DNA of 64,000 nt, taken from the NCBI RefSeq assembly GCF_015711605.1, contig NZ_JABTEZ010000002.1, forward strand, positions 1-64,000, written 5' to 3'. Within the stretch, counting starts at the first letter, position 1; every line of letters begins with the position of its first letter. The translations under genes were made by a program, and so were the position numbers. Shown piece by piece: positions 4,276-54,904 of the stretch. The notes beneath the pieces were generated by a model, which did no database searches, had not been told where the DNA came from, and worked only from the letters and a program-made list of their open reading frames with translations. Source of the DNA: Planomonospora sp. ID67723 (GTDB taxonomy: Bacteria; Actinomycetota; Actinomycetes; Streptosporangiales; Streptosporangiaceae).

Positions 4276-5769
4276 GCAGAACCGAACCCCCGGCGCTGGT
4301 GGATTCTCGGCGTGCTCTGCCTGAGCCTCCTCGTCCTGGTCGTGGACAACACGATCCTGAACCTGGCCATCCCGTCCCTGATGACCGACCTCGGCGCCAG
4401 CCCGGCGGACATCCAATGGATCCTGGACGCCTACATCCTGGTCTTCGCGGGCCTGCTGCTCACCGCGGGCAGCCTCTCCGACCGGTACGGCCGCCGCCGC
4501 TTCCTGATCATCGGCCTGGTGCTGTTCGGCGGCGCCTCCACGCTGGCCCTGGTGGTCACCGAGCCCTGGCAGCTGATCGCGGTGCGCGCGCTGATGGGCG
4601 TCGGCGGCTCCATCCTCATGCCGAGCACCCTGTCCATCCTGATCACCGTCTTCGACGAGGGTGAGCGTCGCAAGGCCATCGCGGCATGGAGCGCCGTGGC
4701 CATGGTCGGCGTGATCGCCGGCCCCACCCTGGGCGGCTTCCTCCTGGAGCGCTACTGGTGGGGCTCGATCTTCCTGCTCAACGTGCCCATCGCGATCGTG
4801 GCCGTCGCGGCGGCGGTCATCCTGATGCCCGAGTCGCGTGGCCCGGCCCGGCGGCTCGACCCGTTCGGCGTGGTCCTGTCCACCACGGGCATGAGCGCGC
4901 TGGTCTTCGCGGTCGTCTCCGTGCCCTCCGAGGGCGTGATCTCGACCCCGGTGCTGGCCGCCACGGCGCTGGCCGTCGTGGGACTGGGCGCCTTCGTGCT
5001 CTGGGAGCGTCGCTCCGACCACCCGATGCTGCCGCTGGAGCTCTTCCGCGACCGCAACTTCAGCGGCGCCTCGTTCTCCATCGTGCTGCTCTCGTTCGGC
5101 ACCGGCGCCCTGCTGCTGATGCTCACCCAGTACCTGCAGTTCGTGCTGGGGTACGACCCCATGAAGGCGGGGCTGGCGCTGTTGCCGTACGCGGTGGCCG
5201 CCGCGCTGTTCAACGCGGTCGGCGCCGGGCTGGGACAGAAGGTCCGCAACCGCACGCTCATGGCCGCCGGGCTGGGCGTCATGGGACTCGGCTTCGGCGT
5301 CCTCGCCTTCATCACCGCCGAGAGCGGGTACGGCATGCTGATCACCGGGCTCATGGTCATGGGGATCGGCGGTGGACTCGCGGGACCGGCGGCGTACGCG
5401 ACGCTGATGGGCGCGGTCCCGCCCGCGCACGCGGGAGTCGGATCGGCGCTGAACGACACCGTCCAGCAGGTCGGCATGGCGCTGAGCGTGGCCGTGCTGG
5501 GCAGCGTGCTCGCCGGGGTCTACACCTCCTCGATGCCGCAGGACGCGCCCGCCGTCGCCCGCGACTCCATCGCCGGAGCGAGGCTGCTCGGGGACCCGGC
5601 CCTGATGGATACGGCGGTGGAGTCGTTCGTCGGGGCGATGTCGTTCGGCTCCTGGGTGGGCGTCGTCTTCTGCCTGGCCGCCGTCGCCCTGGCGCTGGCG
5701 GTGATCCGCCCCGCGCCGCAGGCTCCCGCGGGCTCCCCGGACGCCGGCCTGGTACGGGCGGAGGGCTGA
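4255..5769 (+). CDS. MFS efflux transporter, DHA2 (14-TM) type
   Basis: A 504-aa integral membrane protein with about 14 hydrophobic segments, typical of proton-driven EmrB/QacA-type drug exporters. TM1 carries VVDNTILNLAIPSL (the D-TI-NLA motif of DHA2 pumps), motif A appears as GSLSDRYGRRRF, and GPTLGG matches the antiporter motif C. The start is uncertain: GTG 4255, GTG 4249 and TTG 4237 are all in frame, none has a Shine-Dalgarno sequence, and all lie within the operator array, so a leaderless transcript is plausible. Expression is probably repressed by the divergent TetR. An 18-bp tandem repeat straddles the stop codon. Substrate unknown. Confidence 0.87.
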   Translation: MESNTVRAEPNPRRWWILGVLCLSLLVLVVDNTILNLAIPSLMTDLGASPADIQWILDAYILVFAGLLLTAGSLSDRYGRRRFLIIGLVLFGGASTLALVVTEPWQLIAVRALMGVGGSILMPSTLSILITVFDEGERRKAIAAWSAVAMVGVIAGPTLGGFLLERYWWGSIFLLNVPIAIVAVAAAVILMPESRGPARRLDPFGVVLSTTGMSALVFAVVSVPSEGVISTPVLAATALAVVGLGAFVLWERRSDHPMLPLELFRDRNFSGASFSIVLLSFGTGALLLMLTQYLQFVLGYDPMKAGLALLPYAVAAALFNAVGAGLGQKVRNRTLMAAGLGVMGLGFGVLAFITAESGYGMLITGLMVMGIGGGLAGPAAYATLMGAVPPAHAGVGSALNDTVQQVGMALSVAVLGSVLAGVYTSSMPQDAPAVARDSIAGARLLGDPALMDTAVESFVGAMSFGSWVGVVFCLAAVALALAVIRPAPQAPAGSPDAGLVRAEG

Positions 5770-48943: not shown

Positions 48944-49771
48944 ATGAGCAGTGGGATGGGCGCGGACGTGGACGGCGGGACGGACGGGCGCGGCGGGGCG
49001 GGCGTGAAGGCGGACGGCGGGGCGGGCGCGGCGCTGGCGGTCGAGGCGGTCTCGGTGTCCTTCGGCGGGATCCACGCGCTCAGCGACGTCTCCTTCGAGG
49101 TGCCGCGGGGGCAGGTCTGCGGGGTGATCGGGCCCAACGGGGCGGGCAAGACCACGTTGTTCGACGTCGTCTCCGGGCTGCGCCGACCGACCTCCGGCTC
49201 TGTCCGGGTGGCGGGTCGCGACGTCACGGCCGTTCCGGCGGTACGGCGGGCCCGCGCCGGGCTGCGCCGTACCTTCCAGCGGACCCAGGTGTTCGGCCGC
49301 CTGACCGTGGCCGACAACGTGCTGGCCGCGATGGAGTGGCGCGGGGGCGGCGGCGGCCTCCTGGCCGACCTGACCGGCTGGCCCTCCCGGCGGGGGCGGG
49401 AACGGGATCGCAGGCGGCGGGTGGAGGAGGTGCTCTCCCTGTGCGGGCTGACCGAGCTGCGCGACGCCTACGCCGCCTCACTGCCCGTCGGCCAGCGCCG
49501 CCTGGTCGAGCTGGCCCGGGCCCTCGCCGACGACCCCTCGCTGCTCCTGCTCGACGAGCCGACCTCCGGTCTCGACGCCGACCAGACCGCCCGTCTGGGG
49601 GAGGTCGTCCGATCCCTGGACACCACGACGCTGCTGGTCGAGCATGACATGGGCTTCGTCATGGACGTCTGCGACCGCCTCGTCGTCCTCGATCTCGGCA
49701 AGGTCATCGCCACCGGCGTCCCGGCCGAGATCCGCGGCGATCCCGCCGTCCGTGCCGCCTACCTCGGCTAG
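48944..49771 (+). CDS. ABC transporter ATP-binding protein, LivG type
   Basis: A 275-aa ATPase with Walker A GPNGAGKTT (63-71), LRRTFQRTQVFGRLTVADNVL typical of LivG, a variant signature SLPVGQRRLVE and Walker B LLLLDEPTSGLD. A Gly/Ala/Asp-rich N-terminal extension of about 28 residues precedes the domain. Its start lies 1 bp after the fused transporter stop. Together with the fused LivF domain it would make the heterodimeric ATPase. A terminator-like hairpin follows at 49832. Confidence 0.9.
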   Translation: MSSGMGADVDGGTDGRGGAGVKADGGAGAALAVEAVSVSFGGIHALSDVSFEVPRGQVCGVIGPNGAGKTTLFDVVSGLRRPTSGSVRVAGRDVTAVPAVRRARAGLRRTFQRTQVFGRLTVADNVLAAMEWRGGGGGLLADLTGWPSRRGRERDRRRRVEEVLSLCGLTELRDAYAASLPVGQRRLVELARALADDPSLLLLDEPTSGLDADQTARLGEVVRSLDTTTLLVEHDMGFVMDVCDRLVVLDLGKVIATGVPAEIRGDPAVRAAYLG

Positions 49772-49831
49772 TGCCGTGCCCGGCGGCCTCCGCCTCGTCA
49801 CCGCCCCTCCGGGAGGGCGGGAAGGAGGGCG

Positions 49832-49861
49832 GAACGGCCCGGCCATGCCGACGGGCCGTTC
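49832..49861 (+). terminator. Hairpin terminator of the branched-chain transporter operon
   Basis: GAACGGCCCG (49832-49841) pairs perfectly with CGGGCCGTTC (49852-49861) around a 10-nt loop, 60 bp after the last gene. Confidence 0.65.
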
Positions 49862-50002
49862 GTCGTGTCACGGCCCGGGACCTCGGCGGCACGGCGAGGT
49901 CGGAACCGTCACTGACCGGTAGCGGCATCGCCGAACACAGGGACGCGGGGGCCGGTGTGGTGACGCCGCCGTGACTGCAGAGGGGCAGGGGACGGAATGC
50001 CT

Positions 50003-50054
50003 TTCCCGGGTATTGCTGAGAGCAATACATATTGCTCTCAGCAATACCCGGGAA
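50003..50054. repeat. 52-bp nested palindrome, probable operator pair
   Basis: Arms 50003-50027 and 50030-50054 are perfectly complementary over 25 bp with a 2-bp centre. Each arm contains its own 17-bp dyad: TATTGCTGAGAGCAATA (50011-50027) and TATTGCTCTCAGCAATA (50030-50046), starts 19 bp apart. Both are flanked outside by CCCGGG. It lies 98 bp upstream of the XRE gene, so it is likely an operator for that protein. Confidence 0.8.
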
Positions 50055-50152
50055 GCGAAACGTCTTTCCCCGGCGGGCCGGGGTACGGAGAGCGGCGCAG
50101 GTTATCCCCAGAACATGGTTCATCGGCGCGGAGAGGAAGGCGCCGACTCACC

Positions 50153-51042
50153 ATGGGTGGAGTGTTCAGCGATCTCGACGGCGGCTTCAAGGGCGGCTTC
50201 AAGGGCGGCTTCGACCCGGAGAACATCGGCGTGCCGGACCCCGGAGACGGTGAGATCCTCGGTGACCTGCTGCGAACGCTTCGCGAGTCGGCAGGGCTCT
50301 CCCAACGAGAACTGGCGGGGAAGGCGCGGATCGCCCAGGGCACCCTGTCGGCGTACGAACGAGGGCTGCGGGAGCCGTCGTGGAGGATGTTCCGGCGTAT
50401 CGCCGCGGCGGCGGGAGCCCAGCCGCGAGTGGAGTTCCAGGCCCTCTGGAGCGACGTCGACACTGAGATCGAGCGGATGCGGGAGCTCGACATCGCCGAA
50501 CGGATCCGCAAATGGGAGAGGATCGATGCATACGGGCTCTTCTCTGGTCTGCGCGACGTCCGCTATCGGGTGGAAGGCCTCGCTGCCGCTTCGCTCCAGG
50601 GCGCCCCGGTTCCGGTCACGGCCGTAGATCTGGGTGTTCTGGACGACCCGGCCAACCTTGCCCTCCTCGCGGACGCGATCGCCGGGCTCTACGGGCAGCG
50701 ATGGAGTTCGGCCTATGGCTACTACGGATTCGTGGACCCGGATCCTCGGGTCGAAGGGGAGATGGAGTGGAGGGGAATCTCGGGACGTTTCCGCGTGCGA
50801 CTGGTGAGCGGGCTTCAGCGCTCGGTCTGGGTTCAGGTCGAGGACCGGCAGGTCGCGGTCATGCCGGTGTACGAGGTGGAAGCGGGCGACCTCCGTGCAC
50901 GCCGGATTCTGGAGCGCGTCCGGATGAGGCTCCGCGAACTCGCGGGGGAGCGGGAAGGCGAGGTCGAGAGCGGGAAGGCCGGAGGGACGGGGAATCCGGG
51001 TCGCTCGGTGGTCCGCATGGCCGGCGTCGGGTGTTCAGGTGA
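50153..51042 (+). CDS. XRE helix-turn-helix fused to nucleotidyltransferase-like domain; 3' end unresolved
   Basis: ATG 50153 with GGAAGG upstream. Residues 36-88 are an XRE/Cro helix-turn-helix (LRESAGLSQRELAGKA, QGTLSAYERGLREPS). Residues about 112-258 (VRYRVEGLAAASLQGAPVPVTAVDLGV, DDPANLALLADAI) resemble nucleotidyltransferase folds of the GGlAaalhGxPxxTxDlD type, but the first Gly is Glu and the Asp pair is incomplete, so activity is doubtful. Near the N-terminus, KGGF is repeated through a 12-bp DNA repeat (about 50181-50213). The frame has no stop until 51913 and would run antisense through the whole SDR gene. The domain-like part ends near 50950; the end given is the nearest stop in another frame, so a frameshift or stop loss is suspected. 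Confidence 0.55.
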
Positions 51043-51850
51043 ACAGCTGGCCGGCGTTGACGTCGAGGGTGGCACCGGTGATGGCCCCGGCCTGGTCCGA
51101 GGCGAGGAAGACGATCGCCCGGGCGACGTCCTCCTCGGTGGCGATCCGGCGCAGGGCCATCGCGCTCAGGTCGCGGGCCAGGACGTCCTCGTAGGAGACG
51201 CCCTCGGCGGTGGCGCGGGTGCGCATCCAGTCGTCGAGGACCTCGCTGGCGATCCAGCCGGGGGCCACGCAGTTGACCCGAACGCCGTACGGGCCGAGCT
51301 CGTCGGCCAGGCAGTGGGAGAGCAGGTGGGCGGCGGCCTTGCCTGCTGCGAAGTCGCTGCGGCCCGCGTAGCCCTTGCGGGAGGACATGGAGGTCACGTT
51401 CACGATCGAGCCGGAACCCCGCTCGACCATCAGGGGTGCGAGGAAACGGCAGGCGAGCAGCGTGCCGTACGCACCGATGTCGACCGCCGTGCGCCAGGAG
51501 GCCAGGTCGGCGGGAGACATGTCCAGCACCTTCCTGCGGTGGGTGCCCGGGAATGCCGCGTTGACCAGGACGTCCAGGCGGCCGAAGCGCTCGGTGACGG
51601 CGGCGGCGAGGGACTCGACATCCGCCGGGCTGGTGACGTCGGCGGGGAAGGCGAGCGTGCCGGGAAACTCGGCGGCGATCTTCTCGACGGTGGCGGCGGT
51701 CCGGGCGGCGACCACGACGGAGGCGCCCTCGGCCGACATCAGCCGGGCCAGCGTCCGGCCGAGGCCGGGGCCCGCGCCGGTGACGACGGCGACCTTCCCG
51801 CGGAGCGCGCCGCCGGTCCCTTCCGGCACCGGGTCTGTCTCGTACGGCAT
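51035..51850 (-). CDS. SDR family oxidoreductase with Tyr-to-Phe active-site change
   Basis: A 271-aa classical-type short-chain dehydrogenase. Cofactor motif TGAGPGLG (24-31) and Ser154 (NVTSMSS) are present. The expected YxxxK reads SDFAAGK, with Phe167 in place of the catalytic Tyr and Lys171 kept; NNAG is NAAF. Tyr161, six residues before, cannot occupy the same position without a gap. It may be inactive, have altered chemistry, or use another residue. It is divergent from an LLM gene with two shared-family dyads between them. Confidence 0.87.
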   Translation of the reverse strand: MPYETDPVPEGTGGALRGKVAVVTGAGPGLGRTLARLMSAEGASVVVAARTAATVEKIAAEFPGTLAFPADVTSPADVESLAAAVTERFGRLDVLVNAAFPGTHRRKVLDMSPADLASWRTAVDIGAYGTLLACRFLAPLMVERGSGSIVNVTSMSSRKGYAGRSDFAAGKAAAHLLSHCLADELGPYGVRVNCVAPGWIASEVLDDWMRTRATAEGVSYEDVLARDLSAMALRRIATEEDVARAIVFLASDQAGAITGATLDVNAGQLFT

Positions 51851-51863
51851 GCGATCGATTGTA

Positions 51864-51879
51864 CCAAGCGCTTGTTAGG
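51864..51879. promoter_or_regulatory. Shared-family dyad (site E)
   Basis: CCAAGCG-CT-TGTTAGG lies 14 bp upstream of the SDR ATG at 51850, over the likely core promoter. Confidence 0.6.
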
Positions 51880-51922
51880 CATGAAGGGTGTGCGGGTGTC
51901 CTTTCGGGACTAGGCGTGTCTA

Positions 51923-52890: not shown

Positions 52891-54537
52891 TCAGGCGGGA
52901 ACCGCCTCCTTGTGGCGGCGGCCTCGGTACTCCCCGGGGGCGAGGGCGTCGTCCGGGGCCAGGACGTCGCCGGGCGCGGTGGGAAGGGATCCGGGGAGAG
53001 GAGACCCGGGGAGAGGAGACCCGGGGGGAGAAGACACGGCGGGAGGAGTCACGGGGGGAGAAGACACGGCGGGAGAAGACACGGCGGGAAGAGGCGCGGC
53101 CGGGACGGTCGTGCTGACGGCGGGCTCGGGGCGGCGGTGGCGGCGGCCCCGCAGCGGCGCGTCCTGCACGAAGGTCGAGGACTCGGCACGGCGGTGGCGG
53201 CGGCCCCGCAGCGGCGCGTCCTGCACGAAGGTCGAGGATTCCACGACCGGACGCTCCCGGAGGCGGCGCCTGCCCTGGTAGGGGAGCTGGGGCTGCTCGG
53301 CGGGGAGCTCCCGGACGGAGGGGCCTGCCTGCGCGGGGAGAGCCTCGCGGACGGCGGATCCCTCCCCGGGGAGGGAGAAGTCCTGAGCGGTGAAGGACTC
53401 CCGGGTGAGGACGGTGCTCCGGGTGACCAGCGCCTCGCGGGCGGGGGCGCCACGGGCGATGCGGCGGCGGCCGGGGGCGCGGCGACGGCCCGGGGCGGAG
53501 CGGTGCGAGCCGGCGGTACGGCGGGAGGCGAGCCCCGCGCCCTCCTCGCCCTGCGCGCGTCCCGCGAAGGCCAGGCGCAGGCCGGACTGCTTGACCTTGG
53601 CGTGGGCGATGATCGCGACCGCGGCGAGCAGGATCGGGGCGAGTACGGCGGGGGTGCCGAGGTCGGGAGTGCTCGTGGCCAGGTCGCGGGCGGCTGCGGC
53701 GGGGACCGCGGCGAAGGAGTCGGTGTCGGCGGTCGCGGGCTTGGCGTGCTTGCCCGGTGTGGTGCGGCCGGCGGAGACCTGGGGGCCGGCGGCCGAGGGG
53801 GCGGTCTCGGACGTCTCGGCGGTCTTCTTGGGCGCGGCCTTGGCGGTGGTCTTCTCGGGCGCGGTCTTCCGGGCGGGCTCGGTCGCGGCCTCGGTGGCGG
53901 GCTTCCCGGCCTTCTCCGCCTTCTCGGTCTCCTGCTGCGGAGGGATGAGGGCGGGGATCATGGAGAGCAGGTCGAGCTGGGGGGACAGGGAGACGAAGTT
54001 GTCCGAGGACGAGGTGGCGGAGGTGGCGGAGGAGGTGCCGATCACCTGTTGCTCGGCGGCCTCCTTGTCCAGCCGGGCCTTGATCTTCTCCGGATAGCCG
54101 TAGCCGACGACCTTGCCGGTGTCGCGCTCCTTGCGCTTGGCGACGCCGCCGTCGATGTTGCCCTCGATGGTGCGGATGGTCGAGCCGTCCACGCTGGTGA
54201 CGATCCCGACATGGTCGATGCCGTCGATCTTCTTCGAGCCGCTCCAGTCGAAGAACACGAGGGCTCCGGGCTTGGGGGTGGTGCCCCAGGCGTCCTGCTC
54301 CCGGAACCACTCGGCGTGGTACACGGTGTAGGCGAACTGACCGATCCAGTCCTCGTAGCCGAGCTTCTTGGCCGCCCACGACAGATACATGTCGCACCAG
54401 GGCGCCGCGGAGTAGTCCGCGTCGAACTCGACGTTGCTGCCGTACCAGTCGCCGAACTTGGTGTAGCCGCTGCTCTTCTCGGAGTATCCGAGCTCGCTCT
54501 CCAGCAGCTCGATGAACTTCTGCATCTCAGGGGTCAT
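52891..54537 (-). CDS. CHAP-domain protein with internal TM helix and repetitive basic C-terminal tail
   Basis: A 548-aa protein. Residues 1-155 are a CHAP amidase/endopeptidase domain with Cys48 (APWCDMYLSW), His109 (IDHVGIVT) and the EGN motif at 125-127. A Lys/Ala/Thr/Pro-rich segment (about 200-290) leads to one hydrophobic helix (about 295-312). The C-terminal tail is basic and Pro/Ser-rich, with two adjacent copies of ESSTFVQDAPLRGRRHRRA and an RGRRH-like motif four times. No N-terminal signal peptide is visible, so how the hydrolase domain reaches the wall is unclear. ATG 54537 fits the family start MTPEMQKF; ATG 54570 is an alternative. Confidence 0.85.
   Translation of the reverse strand: MTPEMQKFIELLESELGYSEKSSGYTKFGDWYGSNVEFDADYSAAPWCDMYLSWAAKKLGYEDWIGQFAYTVYHAEWFREQDAWGTTPKPGALVFFDWSGSKKIDGIDHVGIVTSVDGSTIRTIEGNIDGGVAKRKERDTGKVVGYGYPEKIKARLDKEAAEQQVIGTSSATSATSSSDNFVSLSPQLDLLSMIPALIPPQQETEKAEKAGKPATEAATEPARKTAPEKTTAKAAPKKTAETSETAPSAAGPQVSAGRTTPGKHAKPATADTDSFAAVPAAAARDLATSTPDLGTPAVLAPILLAAVAIIAHAKVKQSGLRLAFAGRAQGEEGAGLASRRTAGSHRSAPGRRRAPGRRRIARGAPAREALVTRSTVLTRESFTAQDFSLPGEGSAVREALPAQAGPSVRELPAEQPQLPYQGRRRLRERPVVESSTFVQDAPLRGRRHRRAESSTFVQDAPLRGRRHRRPEPAVSTTVPAAPLPAVSSPAVSSPPVTPPAVSSPPGSPLPGSPLPGSLPTAPGDVLAPDDALAPGEYRGRRHKEAVPA
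52985..53100. repeat. Degenerate short repeats in CHAP gene 3' end
   Basis: Repeats built on GGGAGAGGAGACCC and GGGAGAAGACACGGC, about 15 bp long, encode alternating Pro/Ser/Val/Gly motifs in the last fifth of the CHAP protein. Confidence 0.6.
53134..53243. repeat. 57-bp tandem duplication inside CHAP gene
   Basis: Two copies start at 53134 and 53191; the first 48 bp are identical. The unit encodes 19 residues and stays in frame, giving two copies of the STFVQDAPLRGRRHRR segment. Confidence 0.8.
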
Positions 54538-54904
54538 GGAAGTGGGAAACCTCCGGGAGCCGTCAGGCATGGTCGCGCCGCCCCGCGACCGGGCTGTCAG
54601 AGATCGAGTCGAACGATGGCGCGTTCACGCGGCCGGGCCGGGACGATCGGGACGCGTGTGGCGGCACCATTGGTCAGGTGTCTTCCGTGGGCAGGGAGGC
54701 TACCCGGACCCAAAAGCAGGTCAAGACGGGTCAAAGCCCCAGCCAAGAGAGTCGGCAAGCGGCTAAGACGGATAAAACCCCACGTCAGCGGCCTTTAGGG
54801 GATTTTTGCACATAAACCCATCGGGACCAAAAGATCTACGAAACGGTGCGACCGTATCATCGAACGGAACATTCTTCTGTAGAAGATCGTTCTAATATGG
54901 GGGC
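54538..54904. other. Intergenic region between CHAP and thioesterase genes
   Basis: 367 bp, more AT-rich than its surroundings between 54700 and 54870. It serves both divergent genes. On the right is a dyad and -10 box (54867-54898). The left part, likely the 5' leader of the CHAP gene, shows short CCCC...GGGG stems near 54777-54805 but no riboswitch motif I can recognise. Confidence 0.5.
54867..54898 (+). promoter_or_regulatory. Promoter and dyad of thioesterase gene, probably leaderless
   Basis: The dyad GAACATTCTTCT-GT-AGAAGATCGTTC (two mismatched pairs) spans 54867-54892. TAATAT at 54893-54898 is a good -10 element only 6 bp before the ATG at 54905, which implies that transcription starts at or next to the start codon. 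Confidence 0.55.

Follow-up and report, generated by a model that had tools for sequence, protein, structure and literature searches.

The question raised by this locus is whether the nested palindrome at positions 50003-50054 is the operator of the XRE-type gene that follows it or one insertion of a mobile repeat. The window denotes the whole 64,000-nt stretch that was analysed, C2:1-64000 of a Planomonospora genome of 8.34 Mb (G000); P. venezuelensis (G001) is the sole other species of the genus met in the analysis.

The palindrome reads TTCCCGGGTATTGCTGAGAGCAATA-CA-TATTGCTCTCAGCAATACCCGGGAA, and its arms (50003-50027 and 50030-50054; 25 nt each) are 100% complementary with 2 nt between them, exactly as a first-pass annotation of this DNA had described in reporting a 52-bp palindrome with two perfect 25-bp arms. 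The TATTGCT-n3-AGCAATA dyad that it had seen in each arm, giving four half-sites, is likewise borne out by the sequence. The CCCGGG that it had taken to flank the arms is also present, but belongs to the arms themselves, as their locus-specific outer stem. With up to 3 mismatches allowed, the window holds exactly two occurrences of the dyad TATTGCTnnnAGCAATA, compared with 0.03 expected from shuffles. The centres of the half-sites in the array are spaced at 10, 9, and 10 bp, i.e., about one helical turn each (Table 1).

Table 1. Positions of the palindrome, its parts, and the linked gene in the window
Feature	Position	Strand	Remark
Whole 62-nt element, family coordinates	49998..50059		Model R1, built with the window copy among its members: 74.3 bits on +, 69.7 on -
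Left outer arm TTCCCGGG	50003..50010		Complementary to the right outer arm; sequence varies from copy to copy
Left dyad TATTGCT-GAG-AGCAATA (half-sites 1 and 2)	50011..50027		Family core ATTGC-N5-GCAAT at 50012-50026
Palindrome centre CA	50028..50029		Central 4 nt of the family at 50027-50030
Right dyad TATTGCT-CTC-AGCAATA (half-sites 3 and 4)	50030..50046		Family core at 50031-50045
Right outer arm CCCGGGAA	50047..50054		Pairs with the left outer arm
Linked XRE-type gene	50153..50959	+	Follows the palindrome after 98 bp; recognition helix predicted as QGTLSAYE

The gene starting at 50153 encodes an XRE-type helix-turn-helix (HTH_31, 2.1e-14, residues 36-95), in agreement with the first-pass assignment of an XRE gene downstream of the palindrome. 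Searches of Pfam, NCBIfam, and PDB sequences with the protein gave no match beyond the HTH region. In the structure prediction (mean pLDDT 49.9), the HTH alone was confident, with values <50 over residues 61-170 of the stretch modelled. The C-terminal part, containing YRVEGxAAxxLxGAP, could by eye be a decayed nucleotidyltransferase-like domain, in line with the nucleotidyltransferase-like label that the first-pass annotation had given the gene. The reading frame stays open for about 950 nt beyond the homologous part (50959-51913), antisense over a dehydrogenase-like gene (51035-51850, minus strand). Elsewhere in the window (52891-54570, minus strand), a predicted protein carries SSTFVQDAPLRGRRHRR twice in tandem near its C-terminus, followed by Pro/Ser-rich repeats. 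Among the ORFs near the XRE gene, no restriction-modification genes were noticed.

In all three genomes that hold the family, one copy lies just upstream of an XRE homologue, in the same orientation to the gene. The distance from copy to gene is 98 bp in the genome of the window, about 17-107 bp in P. venezuelensis, where the start codon is ambiguous, and 218 bp in Xylanimicrobium pachnodae (G698). The P. venezuelensis orthologue of the window gene is 81-83% identical and has the same site arrangement. For X. pachnodae, the homologue (L142 981-1766) is transcribed away from the copy and matched in tblastn with 38% identity over 134 aa, and a two-sequence alignment of the window and X. pachnodae proteins gave a low overall identity (32%). 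The first-pass annotation had held that absence of the palindrome upstream of orthologues would speak against an operator; a copy is present upstream of the orthologue in P. venezuelensis and of the homologue in X. pachnodae. Around the remaining copies, tblastn with the XRE proteins found no homologue at E 0.05 (in regions of up to 20 kb around the other six X. pachnodae copies and of up to 18 kb around those in the two Planomonospora genomes).

The homology reaches past the HTH, as Y, G, A, L, G, P, and V of YRVEGxAAxxLxGAPxxV are invariant in five sequences. Helix 3, the recognition helix in such HTH folds, reads QGTLS in both Planomonospora species and X. pachnodae, PATIS in a homologue from another genus in the family (G014, 31% identical), and RSVIA in that of a further genome (G047). 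For G014, a 40-nt palindrome with 19-nt perfect arms (L175 2133-2172; contig C385) lies 38 bp upstream of the homologue and is also a doublet, with TTTTC-N7-GAAAA occurring twice and half-site starts at offsets 2, 14, 21, and 33; it was found 0 times in viral contigs. For G047, the upstream dyad is weak, with 10-nt arms and a 16-nt loop, and at background level, such a repeat being seen in 26 of 261 background stretches. HTH-only similarity was common (40 of 41 genomes) and extended to six Microbacterium phage records and one viral contig; no XRE homologues were found in plasmids at 1e-6. Since HTH-only matches are so common, weight was placed on homology beyond the HTH, on position, and on the agreement between helix and half-site.

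Taken together, its position, its array of half-sites, the recognition helix common to both lineages, and the parallel in G014 suggest that the window copy is most likely the putative operator of its XRE gene. The nested palindrome would then be the DNA site of the XRE-type protein encoded downstream, with two dimers, or a tetramer, occupying four ATTGC half-sites about one helical turn apart in two inverted dyads, and binding at 50003-50054 would result in autoregulation of the gene at 50153. Gene and site would constitute a unit shared by two distant lineages of actinobacteria.

The window copy is one of nine in its genome (C2:50012; C1:89379, 324499, 817367, 1005202, and 1271974; C3:654187, 662196, and 730429), all of which are dyad pairs at 19 bp spacing. 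The outer frame is GGGG...CCCC in seven of them, GGGT...ACCC in the window copy, and AGGG...CCCC at C1:817367. P. venezuelensis has eight copies and X. pachnodae seven, the latter exhibiting the same doublet, with a centre resembling GAAT/GAAC and an outer stem that has CGTTCTGGGGCC...GGCCCCAGAACG as its best form. These copies were located with patterns that name the ATTGC and GCAAT words (up to 2-3 mismatches in whole genomes, exact in the scan described below), so that decayed copies escape.

An exact scan of 84,980 species, possibly without the genome of the window, for the doublet ATTGC-N5-GCAAT-N4-ATTGC-N5-GCAAT was convincing beyond Planomonospora only in X. pachnodae. It returned 23 stretches: seven from P. 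venezuelensis, seven from X. pachnodae, and nine elsewhere, which by eye are chance. Two of these nine, L151 (Burkholderiales) and L149 (Nitrospirae), nevertheless have moderate model scores of 37.8 and 33.7 bits, respectively, partly because the pattern had selected them. The ATTGC doublet of L151 (313-374, a Burkholderiales MAG), whose flanks match partly, is probably chance rather than a distant relative. At L154 4901-4991 (a Planctomycetaceae MAG), tandem ATTGCGATCGGCAATCAAC units produce a chance match to the pattern. The specific pattern (up to 3 mismatches) matched in 2 of 341 genomes of the family and the general pattern (up to 2 mismatches) in 3 of 394 genomes of the class, the third of which (G488) has a single match with non-complementary loops, apparently by chance. 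X. pachnodae is the sole match among 221 genomes of its own family.

Plasmid and phage searches with the repeat gave no match covering 80% of the query, on which ground a phage or plasmid origin was rejected. In viral contigs the extended half of the repeat had 0 matches, and two low-GC viral stretches holding four ATTGC words were taken as chance. An attC-like identity was also rejected, as the end motifs of such sites do not fit. No report on the repeat was found in the open-licence PubMed Central literature, judged by titles and abstract openings.

The share of copies at XRE genes is 1/9, 1/8, and 1/7 in the window's genome, P. venezuelensis, and X. pachnodae, respectively, so that the sites are not concentrated at these genes. 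The remaining copies (8/9, 7/8, and 6/7) lie at unrelated loci, indicating that the site is not purely a private operator. The four-half-site operator proposed in the first-pass annotation thus fits the window copy, kept upstream of the gene in P. venezuelensis and X. pachnodae and paralleled in G014, but not the 6-8 copies per genome found elsewhere; the genome search for copies beside XRE genes that it had recommended yields one in each genome, with the others at unrelated loci. Its alternative, a mobile element, fits these dispersed satellites, although the flanking direct repeats that it had associated with such an element are not consistently found.

The satellites are intergenic in unrelated surroundings, many of them 3' of genes, and lie in frame inside two genes. 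By our own gene calls, 11 of 17 separate loci follow a stop codon at a distance of no more than about 300 bp, 2 are in coding sequence, and 1 separates genes that appear to be divergent; the other 3 are elsewhere or unclear. As for the neighbours of the other copies (24 scanned), three had no Pfam match, one was an Lrp/AsnC regulator (G001 C22), and the rest were enzymes, transporters, and the like. In the genome of the window, the outer arm of a copy contains the stop codon of a SURF1 gene, and in X. pachnodae one copy is read in frame close to where an MMPL gene ends. The four copies that the two Planomonospora species have in the NRPS condensation domain are all translated in frame, downstream of RHD(A/T)LRLV, in a stretch that is unaligned in the five solved-structure alignments shown. 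The two NRPS copies on C3 of the window's genome, likewise in frame, carry inner spacers that are inverted, left and right alike, when compared with those of the other copies. They lie in near-identical NRPS stretches 8 kb apart (L046 4988-5021 and 12997-13030; 92% over 534 bp).

Between the sister species, the occupied loci are in large part non-orthologous. P. venezuelensis has counterparts for 4 of the 9 copies (the window site, C1:1005202, and the two NRPS copies), and no palindrome at its junction for the other 5. At four of these five loci, which could be matched on both sides, the P. venezuelensis spacing is 134-204 bp shorter; the fifth, C1:1271974, has a match on one side only. The model detected no decayed copy at the five junctions, and a clean empty site was not found. 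In addition, none of the nine copies lies at the P. venezuelensis loci C18:31, C22, C27, and C34, the G000 contig ending before the place that corresponds to C18:31; the counterpart of C27 adjoins a 5S rRNA gene. The P. venezuelensis copies C18:31, C22:158607, and C27:110503 carry one common spacer sequence and lie at contig ends, apparently beside rRNA operons.

Flank matches between copies were weak (down to about 3e-5 under lenient scoring, 60-79% identity, GC-rich) and were not counted as common flanks. Just left of the copy at C1:324 kb are short imperfect tandem GGACAGCGCCCGT-type units (L043 ~4905-4985). No target-site duplication was consistent across the 24 copies: a 5-nt TGGTG surrounds the core of 42 nt solely at the pair of NRPS copies in G000, and 11 other copies have 4-6-nt words within the arms, mostly self-complementary. 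The RAYT family, PF01797 (Y1 transposase), had 0 matches in the window's genome and in X. pachnodae, and occurs at three places in P. venezuelensis, the nearest about 56 kb from a copy on the same contig. A RAYT-driven REPIN was therefore rejected, two of the three hosts being without PF01797. With PF01797 as the transposase family searched for, no autonomous MITE parent with the same ends was seen.

The turnover, the unrelated surroundings, and the folded symmetry make the satellites look REPIN-like. The 6-8 further copies per genome, scattered and turned over between sister species, would thus probably be miniature REPIN-like satellites that were spread by an enzyme. The same observations bear on a rather unlikely alternative, in which the whole family is a REPIN- or MITE-like mobile repeat without a dedicated reader, the copy beside the XRE gene is one insertion among others, and its link to the gene is due to chance or to their having been transferred together. 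The dispersed copies, unrelated neighbours, in-frame copies in two genes, sister-species turnover, and two-lineage distribution are all consistent with such a repeat, and REPINs too are inverted hairpin doublets with compensatory changes (excerpt of PMC3116915). However, it leaves unexplained why an XRE homologue stands beside one copy in both lineages and why these homologues have a common recognition helix; the absence of PF01797 from two hosts, the lack of a consistent duplication, and the number of copies, 7-9 as opposed to the >100 usual for REPs (excerpt of PMC2817692), also argue against it.

A further alternative, which is very unlikely, is an element acting at the RNA level, with a 3' hairpin terminating or stabilising transcripts. 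The fold predicted for the window copy is very stable (-47.1 kcal/mol, z -11.3), and the 11 of 17 loci downstream of stop codons, on our own gene calls, would suit such a hairpin. However, no terminator-like site was found in the window at 49700-50300, and any 8 nt beside the 24 copies contain at most 4 T; an intrinsic terminator was rejected, as the stem is without a following T-run. In Rfam, every match was below the gathering score (best, 35.9 bits; cut-off, 97), and an RNA element would leave the invariant ATTGC and the XRE link unexplained.

Covariation was analysed in 20 of the 24 copies, leaving out near-duplicates (the second G000 NRPS copy and G001 C22, C27, and C63), with the orientation of each copy fixed by its central four bases. 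Pairing was observed in 85.7% of 580 cells. Changes on both sides of a pair were seen in 83 cells, compared with 37.3 in shuffles, and the covariation score was 0.384, compared with 0.160 when shuffled and at most 0.127 when slid. The cell count, the type count, and the score were each reached by 0 of 500 shuffles, figures that do not amount to probabilities because the aligned rows are related. The two-sided change in 18 of 29 pairs is not striking, since 28 of 500 shuffles reach 18. The outer ATTGC/GCAAT stem showed no variation in the 20 rows and the inner stem varied at two positions, an invariance that comes partly from selection by search patterns naming these words. The outer arms and spacers vary between copies and covary, whereas the half-site words are nearly invariant. 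Inverted repeats with arms of at least 18 nt and loops of at most 8 numbered nine in 286,263 bases: seven of the doublet family, the G014 site, and one elsewhere. A further perfect palindrome, GC-rich and unrelated to the family, has 21-nt arms and zero loop (L041 9211-9252; G000 C1:93.6 kb).

Paired changes between orthologues were observed at columns 14/49 (XRE locus) and 20/43 (NRPS), the latter altering both sides of a stem pair through two amino-acid-changing substitutions, R to L and R to S. Template switching can fix the pairing of stems (excerpt of PMC8794818) and can invert spacers (excerpt of PMC8604942). It can explain the perfect arms and the inverted NRPS spacers of this family, but not its distribution. 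A neutral palindrome without function, its arms perfected by template switching and its copies dispersed by ordinary duplication, would fit the paired orthologue changes and the inverted inner spacers but is extremely unlikely, as it cannot account for one doublet being found both at unrelated loci and, in two distant lineages, next to members of the same gene family.

From the sequences, we infer binding, autoregulation, and transposition, and we consider it somewhat probable that the family consists of an XRE protein with a predicted nested-palindrome site under autoregulation, accompanied by REPIN-like dispersed satellites. Against the operator part of this reading, a plain operator needs no covarying outer arms, and most copies are without a common regulatory logic. 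After insertion, the arms may be kept complementary by replication template switching, by selection for a symmetrical or folded form, or by both. More tentatively, and on balance doubtfully, one XRE protein might read both operator and satellites and help to keep or spread them; the pair may have moved between Planomonospora and Xylanimicrobium, and helix and half-site may have co-evolved, for example in G014.

A small uncharacterised XRE family and a four-half-site nested palindrome constitute a concrete pair for a test, in which the second lineage and the divergent homologue serve as built-in controls. If the same protein does read the satellites, a repressor-like protein and its operator would have given rise to a dispersed repeat family, a route to REPIN-like DNA other than the RAYT route. 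In addition, the sister-species pairs, of which one is located in coding sequence, make it possible to test whether selection or template switching is what maintains perfect palindromes.

Among known systems, the C-box of the controller proteins of restriction-modification systems comprises two dimer sites upstream of the gene for the protein itself, which binds there as two dimers or as a tetramer, and paired inverted repeats are usual in it (excerpt of PMC6237814). The present locus likewise has an XRE-like regulator with a double dimer site upstream of its own gene. In contrast to the C-box, the doublet here forms, over its entire length, a complete or nearly complete palindrome and is dispersed in 7-9 copies, and the XRE protein is longer than C proteins, with a C-terminal part that matches no assigned domain; its PADLOC control-protein matches span the HTH alone. 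Rickettsia palindromic elements also lie in frame inside unrelated genes, but are about 150 bp long (excerpt of PMC10969869), whereas the copies here are 42-62 nt and intragenic at 2 of 17 loci, a distinction drawn from description. As with MITEs and other small palindromic elements, the doublet family is short, inverted-repeat, dispersed, and patchy, but it is without a known parent and without a consistent target-site duplication. With REPINs and their RAYT it has in common the inverted doublet, the hairpin, the compensatory changes, the dispersion, and a copy beside a linked single gene (excerpt of PMC3116915). It differs from them in that the linked gene is XRE rather than a Y1 transposase, in its low copy number, and in the absence of PF01797 from the window's genome and X. 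pachnodae; and, unlike in REPINs, the conserved parts are the inner ones and the variable parts the outer.
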